34,630 nucleotides of DNA from assembly GCA_035536535.1 (NCBI GenBank), contig DATLNZ010000128.1, forward strand, positions 1-34,630, given 5' to 3'. The position numbers and the translations under genes were made by a program. The notes under the pieces were generated by a model, which worked only from the letters and a program-made list of their open reading frames with translations, ran no database searches and had not been told where the DNA came from. Below, in pieces: positions 9,120 through 16,654 of the stretch; the stretch's first letter is position 1, and each line of letters opens with the position of its first letter. The DNA is from Actinomycetota bacterium. GTDB taxonomy: Bacteria; Actinomycetota; JAICYB01.

Positions 9120-10223
9120 TTGACCGGGTCAAACGGCAAGCCGCCGGCCAGGTCGCTGCCGCCCGAGCCCCCGCTCGACGACGCCGCGGACGAGGTCATG
9201 CCTGACCCGGCTCTGCTCACGCCCGACCCCCTCGAGGGCGAGCTCGAGGTCGACCGGTCGCTGCGGCCCCGGGTCCTGGCCGACTTCGTGGGCCAGACCG
9301 ACGCCAAAGAGCGGCTGTCGATCGTCCTGGAGGCGGCGCGCGGCAGGGGAGAGCCCTGCCCCCACCTGCTCTTCAGCGGACCCCCGGGCCTGGGCAAGAC
9401 GTCGCTTGCCCACATCGTGGCCAACGAGATGCAGACCCAGATCCGAGTGACGTCCGGACCGGCCATGGAGCGTCCGGGGGACCTGGTGGCCGTCCTATCC
9501 AACCTAGAGTCCGGCGACATCCTTTTCGTGGACGAAATCCACCGCCTGAACAGGGTCGTGGAGGAGGTCCTGTACCCGGCGATGGAGGACGGCGCCGTCG
9601 ACATCGTCCTGGGCAAGGGGCCTTCCGCGCGCACCCTGCACTACCGCCTGGAACCGTTCACCCTGATCGGAGCCACCACCCGCACCGGGATGATCACCTC
9701 CCCCCTGCGCGACCGGTTTGGCTTCTCTTCGCGCCTGGACTACTACACGCCTGAGGAGTTGACGCAGGTGGTGATGCGCTCGGCCGGCCTTCTGGACGTC
9801 CTCATCGAACCGGCGGGCGCCCGCGAGATCGCGTCTCGGTCGCGGGGGACCCCTCGAATCGCCAACCGCCTGTTGCACCGTGTCCGGGACTTCGCCCAGG
9901 TCAGAGCGGATGGGCACATCTCCGCCGACGTGGCGTCCAGGGCGCTGTCCGTGTTCCACATCGACCCGCTTGGCCTGGACCAGGTGGACCTGGCCATCCT
10001 GCGGTCGTTGGTCGAGAAGTACGACGGTGGACCGGTGGGCGTCTCGACCCTGGCCATCGCGGTGGGGGAGCAGCCCGAGACGATAGAGGACGTCCACGAG
10101 CCCTACCTCGTCCAGACCGGCTTTCTGGCCCGCACCCCCCGCGGCCGGGTCGCCACCGCCTCCGCGTGGCGGCACCTGGGACTGGAGCCCCCAGAGCGTC
10201 CCCAGGGCGACCGCCTGTTCTGA
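9120..10223 (+). CDS. ruvB: Holliday junction branch migration ATPase RuvB
   Basis: A 367-residue AAA+ hexameric motor driving branch migration with RuvA. Walker A GPPGLGKT is at 87-94, Walker B with DEIH at 138-141, sensor 1 'GATTR' near 184-188, the arginine-finger region 'SPLRDRFG' near 194-201, and the C-terminal winged helix ends with '[24 protein letters not shown]'. TTG 9120 is supported by GGAGG at 9108-9112, 7 bases upstream. The N-terminal tail of about 45 residues before '[12 protein letters not shown]' is longer than in E. coli and rich in Pro, Asp and Glu; extended acidic N-termini are common in actinobacterial RuvB. Confidence 0.97.
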
Positions 10224-10288: not shown

Positions 10289-10627
10289 ATGGAAACCCGC
10301 ACGATCGTCTCTCTGACTCCCGCCGCCGCGGCCAAAGTCCGTGAGTTCATCGCCGCCGAGCCGAATGCCGACGACCTCGTGCTTCGCATCGAGGTGCAGC
10401 CCGGAGGGTGCGCCGGGTTCCGCTACGGACTGTTCTTCGACGATCAGGTCGCGGAGTCCGACCTCGTCGAGGAGGTCGAAGGCGTGCGCGTGGCCGTGGA
10501 CCCCATGTCGGCGCCGTACCTGACGGGCGTGGTCGTGGACTGGACGGAGTCCCTCCGGCAGTCCGGCTTCCAGATCAGCAACCCCAACGCCGGCGGCGGC
10601 TGCGCCTGCGGCGACTCCTTCCAGTAA
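10289..10627 (+). CDS. erpA: Iron-sulfur cluster insertion protein, ErpA/IscA (HesB) family
   Basis: A 112-residue A-type carrier that receives Fe-S clusters from the assembly scaffold and hands them to apo-proteins. The family fold is recognisable: 'VSLTPAAAAKVREFIA', 'LRIEVQPGGCAGFRYGLFFDD' with Cys41, 'VAVDPMSAPYLTGVVVDW', and the C-terminal 'NPNAGGGCACGDSF' with Cys105 and Cys107. All three cluster-binding cysteines are present. ATG 10289 has a good GAAAGGGA ribosome-binding site 7 bases upstream; ATG 10262 would add nine residues and has none. The probable Sec-peroxiredoxin frame begins 7 bases after the stop, so the two are likely cotranscribed. The ErpA versus IscA/SufA assignment is by general resemblance only. 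Confidence 0.92.
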   Translation: METRTIVSLTPAAAAKVREFIAAEPNADDLVLRIEVQPGGCAGFRYGLFFDDQVAESDLVEEVEGVRVAVDPMSAPYLTGVVVDWTESLRQSGFQISNPNAGGGCACGDSFQ

Positions 10628-10634
10628 GGCCCCC

Positions 10635-11084
10635 TTGATCGACCAGGGCACCAGGGCTCCGGACATAGACACCCCCTCCACCACGGGGCACTTCCGCCTG
10701 GCGGAGGCCCTGGAGCGGGGGCCGGTGGTGCTGTGGTTTTACCCCCTTCCCGACACCCCGGGCTGAACGATCGAGGCCCTCGAGTTCGAGGGATGGCTGG
10801 ACTCGTTCCAGGAGCTGGGCGTCTCGGTCGTCGGGTGTTCGCCCGACCCCCTTGAGGCCCAGCAGTCGTTCGCCACCCGGCAGACCCTGAGGTTCCCGCT
10901 TCTCGCCGATCCTGATGGCAAGATCTGCAGGGCCTACGGCGTGCTGCCGGAGGGAGGGGGGTTCGTCACCCGCGGCACGGTTGTCATCGGAACCGACGGC
11001 ACCATCACCCTCGCCTACCCGCAGGCCAGGGTCAGGGGGCACGCCGAACAGGTGCTGAACGACCTCCGGACGGAGCTGGCCTGA
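10635..11084 (+). CDS. Probable selenocysteine-containing peroxiredoxin (BCP/PrxQ family), in-frame TGA at 10764-10766 read as Sec
   Basis: One frame runs from TTG 10635 to TGA 11082-11084 with a single internal TGA at codon 44; read through, it gives 149 residues. The signature P-x3-T-x2-C of peroxiredoxins reads P37-L-P-D-T41-P-G-U44, so the TGA falls exactly on the peroxidatic Cys. Both halves are intact BCP/PrxQ sequence: 'APDIDTPS', 'VVLWFYPLPDTPG' before it, and 'FQELGVSVVGCSPDPLEAQQSFA', 'LRFPLLADPDGKICRAYGV', 'TRGTVVIGTDGTI' (active-site Arg113) after it. The usual resolving Cys five residues later is absent (Leu49), leaving Cys68 and Cys98. A SECIS-like hairpin follows at 10777-10792. 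It would reduce hydroperoxides. TTG 10635 has AAGG at 10626-10629 and is 7 bases from the upstream stop. Alternatives are a nonsense mutation or a base-call error; the exact site and intact downstream frame argue against both. No selA, selB, selD or tRNA-Sec lies in the window. Confidence 0.8.
10777..10792 (+). promoter_or_regulatory. SECIS-like hairpin downstream of the in-frame TGA
   Basis: CCCTCG-AGTT-CGAGGG forms a perfect 6-bp stem with a 4-base loop. The loop begins 17 bases after the TGA and its second base is G (10784) followed by U, agreeing with the bacterial SECIS model: a short hairpin just downstream of UGA with a G among the first two loop bases at about 16-37 nt. It would recruit SelB with Sec-tRNA. 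A competing weaker hairpin (TCGAG-GCC-CTCGA) overlaps its 5' arm. Confidence 0.6.
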
Positions 11085-11389
11085 CCGCACCTGCCAGGCA
11101 CCCGGACTGTGAGCTGTGCCTGGCGCACCGCCTGACTCCGTGGCTCCACGAGGACGAGGACTGCTGGATCGCCGAGTGCTTGATCTGCGCGACCCCCATG
11201 GTCGTATGGCGGTCCCACGGCTTCCCGGACCAGGCCACGGAGCAGCGAATGGTGCAGCAGCTCGAGAGGGTCGCCGACGCCGTGTACGGCCAGGGTGGGT
11301 GGTGGACCGATGGCAGGATGCGGAACATCCCCGACCACTGGCACCGTCACGCGCGCCCGGCCGGGGGTTTCTTCGGCCCCCGCCGCTGA
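11081..11389 (+). CDS. Small Cys-rich HIT-like protein, probable CTG start
   Basis: A 102-residue frame whose only plausible start covering the Cys-rich N-terminus is CTG 11081, which overlaps the TGA of the peroxiredoxin (CTGA) and has GGAG five bases upstream. Two C-x-x-C pairs occur (Cys10/13 and Cys33/36), then 'PMVVWRSHG', 'EQRMVQQLERVADAVYG' and 'MRNIPDHWHRHARP'. The last contains H86-W-H88-R-H90, matching the H-x-H-x-H core of the histidine triad (HIT) fold, and the C-x-x-C plus 'R.H' pattern recalls zinc-binding HIT proteins. It is smaller than typical HIT hydrolases. If CTG is not used, TTG 11180 would start a truncated 69-residue product lacking all but the last Cys. The function is unknown; coupling to the peroxiredoxin suggests coexpression. 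Confidence 0.6.
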   Translation: MTAPARHPDCELCLAHRLTPWLHEDEDCWIAECLICATPMVVWRSHGFPDQATEQRMVQQLERVADAVYGQGGWWTDGRMRNIPDHWHRHARPAGGFFGPRR

Positions 11390-11693: not shown

Positions 11694-13239
<1,546 letters not shown>

Positions 13240-13366
13240 CGGAGCAATCCGCTCGGCTCTCGATGCTTGCATCGGGACTGGGACCATGGCGAGAACGTAC
13301 TGGACCCTCAGACACCCGCACTTGCAGCTCTGAGGGATCGGTCATTCCAAAAGATGGCCGCTCAGA

Positions 13367-13388
13367 GCTCTTTGACAACAACATAGTG
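13367..13388 (+). promoter_or_regulatory. boxA-like element in the 16S-23S spacer
   Basis: GCTCTTTGACAACAACATAG in the spacer closely matches the boxA consensus TGCTCTTTAACA. The 171-base spacer (13237-13407) contains no tRNA gene, which is usual in actinobacteria. Confidence 0.55.
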
Positions 13389-13407
13389 AGCGTAGGCATC
13401 TTCATAT

Positions 13408-16480
<3,073 letters not shown>

Positions 16481-16536
16481 AAGATGTCTGCGCTCACTAT
16501 AGGGTTGTCGAAGCTCTGACTCCCTCAAAAAAGGAT

Positions 16537-16654
16537 TCCCGGTGCCTATGGCGGAGGGGTCACACCCGGTCCCATTCCGAACCCGGAAGTTAAGCCCTCC
16601 AGCGCCGATGGTACTGCCCTACAACCGGGGTGGGAGAGTAGGTCGGTGCCGGGG
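16537..16654 (+). rRNA. 5S ribosomal RNA
   Basis: About 118 nt, with closing helix CCCGGTGCC/GGTGCCGGG, the conserved CCCATTCCGAACCCGGAAGTTAAG core (16570-16593) and GGGAGAGTAGGTCG near the 3' end. It follows the 23S gene by about 56 bases, completing a 16S-23S-5S operon. Confidence 0.95.

Follow-up and report, generated by a model that had tools for sequence, protein, structure and literature searches.

A probable selenocysteine peroxiredoxin gene with an in-frame TGA

The window (the whole stretch of 34,630 nucleotides that we analyzed) carries on its plus strand ruvB (9120..10223; PF05496, 245 bits), a gene for an ErpA-like A-type Fe-S carrier (10289..10627, likely start ATG 10289; PF01521, 63 bits; TIGR00049, 115 bits), a peroxiredoxin (Prx) gene of the BCP/PrxQ type (10635..11084) and a small gene (11081..11389) whose product holds the motifs CELC, AECLIC and HWHRHARP. 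A complete 16S-23S-5S rRNA operon lies directly downstream of this operon, at window positions 11694-16654. The Prx frame starts at TTG 10635, with AAGG upstream and 7 bases past the stop codon of the erpA-like gene, ends at TGA 11082-11084 and contains a single internal stop, TGA 10764-10766 (plus strand, codon 44); with that codon read as selenocysteine (Sec, U), the predicted product has 149 residues. The TGA replaces the peroxidatic Cys codon of the motif P37-x3-T41-x2-U44, and in a 24-sequence alignment the TGA column of the Sec forms aligns with the peroxidatic Cys of the Cys forms.

When Cys was put for U, PF00578 (AhpC/TSA) matched residues 5-125 at 104.2 bits, against a cut-off of 26. 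The best NCBIfam matches were PrxQ models, all of them under their equivalog cut-offs (NF053650, 74 vs 260 bits; NF006960, 72 vs 140 bits). An AlphaFold2 model built from the 24-sequence alignment had a mean pLDDT of 96.5 and matched BCP/PrxQ crystal structures at TM ~0.9, its nearest solved structures including a BCP, M. tuberculosis BcpB and Xanthomonas PrxQ; the alignment behind this model and the tree below did not include one Cys form (G108). A preliminary description of the locus, made from the DNA letters, had proposed a complete BCP/PrxQ frame with TGA at the peroxidatic Cys, and rereading of the frame, the PF00578 match (104 bits) and the structure match bear this out in both coordinates and motif. 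The active-site Arg113 that it named proved invariant in the 24-sequence alignment.

Conservation of the TGA codon and selection on the protein

The window's class is represented in our sample by three genomes, each from a different genus. Those of the other two genera of the window's family (G001 and G002) have TGA at the same codon, in proteins 58% and 49% identical to that of the window. When 397 genomes of the phylum were searched with a profile of these three sequences, the seven top matches were all TGA forms, three being the profile's own rows and four coming from another family (f27), and five more TGA forms ranked further down, interspersed with many Cys forms. Thus counted, 12 of 12 Sec forms (the window and eleven other genomes) have their TGA at the peroxidatic position of the alignment. 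This far exceeds a chance origin of TGA at codon 44, because TGA persists at this codon even in relatives of ~40% identity and below.

Under standard annotation the frame is broken by a stop, which fits a pseudogene in which a nonsense mutation has hit the catalytic codon and the remainder has not yet decayed. However, three genera, as well as other families of the phylum, share this stop at this codon and show neither further stops nor frameshifts. Furthermore, dN/dS in the close pair G250/G043 was ~0.14 before the TGA and 0.20 after it, and the corresponding values for the window and G001, a pair near saturation, were ~0.30 and 0.33. The ratios are alike on the two sides, and the downstream part therefore appears to be selected as protein; these codon comparisons indicate purifying selection both before and after the TGA. 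Decay of a former gene is effectively refuted by the shared TGA and the downstream selection, and we regard it as wrong with near certainty. An error of sequencing or assembly that turned TGC or TGT into TGA would be easier to entertain in a draft genome such as this one, but independent assemblies of other genera show the same TGA, which effectively refutes this explanation too and leaves it with a negligible probability. The preliminary description had held that the TGA is not random and that the codons after it are clean, and it had pointed to close relatives as a check; both statements stand, since there is no other stop in the frame, selection is purifying, and the relatives keep TGA at codon 44 with no scattered stops or frameshifts.

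The tree places the seven nearest Sec forms in a single group (support 99/96). The sample requires three changes between Sec and Cys, at least two of which are forced by well-supported branches. A Sec form from G263 (L075), in which a resolving Cys is retained (UTRESC), clusters at support 99/98 with a Cys form from G052 (L061); this grouping suggests a separate Cys/Sec switch within the phylum.

Sec machinery and other candidate selenoproteins of the host

The host genome is a 2.62 Mb draft in 205 contigs with 2.6% contamination. The preliminary description had named selA, selB, selD and a tRNA-Sec with the anticodon UCA as genes to look for, and all four are present above their cut-offs: tRNA-Sec (TCA in the DNA) at 79.5 bits, SelA at 511 bits, SelB at 342 bits and SelD at 380 bits. 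SelD itself carries one in-frame TGA near its start, read as G-U-A-C-K (L024, minus strand, TGA near 2390). The SelB gene sits alone on a 3.2 kb contig (C149, L012), next to a divergently oriented gene whose product is secreted and probably has a thioredoxin fold. A second PF00578 gene of the host, also Prx-like, lies on contig C38 (L002:1492-2031) and has a lone in-frame TGA at 1612-1614 in the context FLRHFGUIHC, which is of the UxxC type; judged by its reading frame, it is a second selenoprotein candidate of this genome. We also considered a binning error as the source of the Sec machinery and rejected it: the contigs with the machinery and C38 have a GC content and tetranucleotide usage in agreement with those of the window, and relatives carry the Prx gene and tRNA-Sec together.

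Across the sample, a tRNA-Sec match was found in all 12 genomes with the TGA form, whereas 257 of the full 397 genomes exceeded the family cut-off. We attach no probability to this comparison, since the genomes are not independent. SelA was found in six of the seven genomes examined, the exception being the draft assembly of G002. These data also bear on the proposal that UGA is read as some other residue, through general recoding or suppression. Any code of this kind would leave the frame open, yet in each of the 12 forms the TGA coincides exactly with the column of the redox Cys, TGA also serves as the stop of the Prx gene itself, and the genome has machinery dedicated to Sec; we consider insertion of another residue extremely improbable.

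A predicted SECIS hairpin downstream of the UGA

A predicted SECIS hairpin, CCCUCG-AGUU-CGAGGG, lies at 10777..10792 on the plus strand and is indicated by its fold, by compensatory changes in seven genomes and by published rules. It consists of a 6 bp stem and an AGUU loop, with 16 nt between the UGA and the loop (the loop starts 17 nt after the UGA), and a 49 nt segment folds at -19.9 kcal/mol. Bacterial SECIS elements have been described as having a loop of 3-9 nt, a stem of 4-16 bp, a G in the first two loop bases, a distance of 16-37 nt from the UGA and an MFE <= -7.5 (PMC13188914), and the predicted hairpin agrees with all of these rules. The AGUU loop is invariant in the seven genomes, and three of the six stem pairs change on both sides. 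Pairing of the stem holds in 88% of cells in these seven genomes, and the covariation score was reached by none of 500 shuffles, a result to be read with the caveat that the hairpin overlaps conserved codons and that coding constraint acts on the same bases. The outermost stem pair fails in four of the seven genomes, and the folding energy by itself is not exceptional within the window's family. For the one lower-scoring Sec form of family f45 that was folded, this hairpin was not obtained.

Taken together, the machinery, the conservation of the TGA and the covariation of the hairpin strongly support the Sec reading put forward in the preliminary description. On this genomic evidence we are highly confident that window positions 10635-11084 represent a functional selenoprotein gene in which UGA codon 44 is decoded as Sec. 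The same UGA could also act as a terminator part of the time. Standard annotation would truncate or drop the gene and so would probably miss it, and the locus clearly illustrates how a selenoenzyme that probably works would escape in this way.

Proposed mechanism and the resolving step

In the mechanism that we propose, the host SelB and tRNA-Sec would decode UGA codon 44 as Sec, helped by the hairpin just downstream, and the product of this read-through would be a BCP/PrxQ-type peroxiredoxin. By analogy with the Prx family, the Sec44 selenolate, activated by T41 and R113, would attack a hydroperoxide and be converted to a selenenic acid.

How the selenenic acid would be resolved is a separate question. 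The position of the usual PrxQ resolving Cys, residue 49 (+5), is Leu in the window protein, which thus lacks the residue that marks the 2-Cys PrxQ/BCP type; a resolving Cys at +5 is missing in 11 of 12 Sec forms and present in that of G263. The preliminary description had stated that the resolving Cys is missing, and this holds for the usual position (Leu49), but the protein has two other cysteines, C68 and C98, so that it may still hold a resolving thiol. It may be that C68 serves as the resolving residue, or an outside thiol may do so. In the former case, Sec44 would be resolved within the protein in a Sec-Cys mechanism and no special reductant would be needed. C68 is invariant in the three members of the window's family, and other Sec forms have Ile, Val or Met in this column; against such a role, C68 is absent from all nine other Sec forms aligned, and known PrxQ resolving positions are at +5 or in the third helix, as in E. 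coli BCP and Xanthomonas PrxQ. We think resolution by C68 unlikely, though with a real chance of being correct. With no resolving Cys at the usual +5 position, an external thiol or a partner, for instance a thioredoxin, a glutaredoxin-like protein or mycothiol, would most likely resolve the selenenic acid. A 1-Sec mechanism or an external reductant, as the preliminary description had suggested, is an inference.

Gene neighborhood

The gene order ruvB, erpA-like, Prx and small CxxC/HxHxH gene is common to the window, G001 and G002, that is, to three genera, with ruvB upstream in each. The carrier has all its Cys and no Sec, and its gene ends 7 bases before the Prx start. Its naming as ErpA in the preliminary description was correct as to the A-type carrier subfamily, for which the model TIGR00049 was passed, but the protein falls just below the ErpA equivalog cut-off (113 vs 117 bits). 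The small gene probably starts at a CTG that overlaps the stop codon of the Prx gene, and its counterparts in the same place in the other two genera, whose products are 58% and 71% identical to that of the window, start over this stop codon with TTG (G001) and GTG (G002), which suggests translational coupling. The small protein, with its CxxC pairs and HWHxHARP motif, has no relative in Pfam, NCBIfam or the PDB.

We examined the small gene as a Sec-specific partner and rejected this role. It is present in 37 of the 397 phylum genomes, and in five loci that were inspected other genes precede it. Its distribution, mostly in families with no noted Sec Prx, is not that of a partner dedicated to Sec. 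A general Sec operon was likewise rejected. The setting with the erpA-like and small genes was seen only in the window's family, and the Sec forms of f27 sit in other settings, such as downstream of a carA-like gene in G043.

The place of the Prx gene after that of an A-type Fe-S carrier might, speculatively, reflect protection of Fe-S assembly from peroxide. We give only a slim chance to a broader proposal, in which the window protein belongs to a one-Sec Prx lineage resolved by a dedicated partner, perhaps the coupled CxxC/HxHxH protein, and together with the A-type carrier makes up a small shield that keeps peroxide from Fe-S cluster assembly.

Comparison with known systems

Sec-containing Prx with TxxU are frequent among the selenoproteins of bacteria: previous surveys counted 43 for the Sargasso Sea, classed as COG1225 (PMC1088965), 12 for early genomes, where five Cys-to-Sec events were noted (PMC1794560), 253 for GOS (PMC2398784) and 91 from 78 organisms (PMC5029168), and the motif PxxxTxxU of the bacterial forms has been described (PMC13188914). 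The window Prx is an additional member of this published family and establishes no new principle. Like the other bacterial Sec Prx (PF00578/COG1225), it has Sec for the peroxidatic Cys in P-x3-T-x2-U, belongs to the BCP/PrxQ (COG1225) class, and has a predicted SECIS just past the UGA and the full Sec machinery in its host. Unlike them, it has conserved erpA-like and small CxxC/HxHxH neighbors, has no resolving Cys at +5 and comes from a small uncultured class. The preliminary description had called both host and neighborhood notable; Sec Prx are a common published family, but the erpA-like neighborhood is indeed conserved across three genera, and it is the only mildly novel part. The interest of the window Prx lies in the certainty of the case, its expected escape from annotation and this neighborhood, through which it adds a conserved Fe-S-related setting to the Sec peroxiredoxins; it also raises the testable question of what reduces a Sec Prx with no usual resolving Cys.

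Two further systems are close. With the Cys forms of PrxQ/BCP (E. coli BCP, M. tuberculosis BcpB, Xanthomonas PrxQ), the window protein shares the modeled fold (TM ~0.9), T41, R113 and the TPG-x-T active-site context, and it differs from them in having Sec for Cys and no usual resolving Cys. With the Prx-like thiol:disulfide selenoproteins (UxxC), of which the C38 candidate in the same genome is one, it shares a thioredoxin fold and Sec, but its active site is TxxU and the C38 protein is only 26% identical to it.
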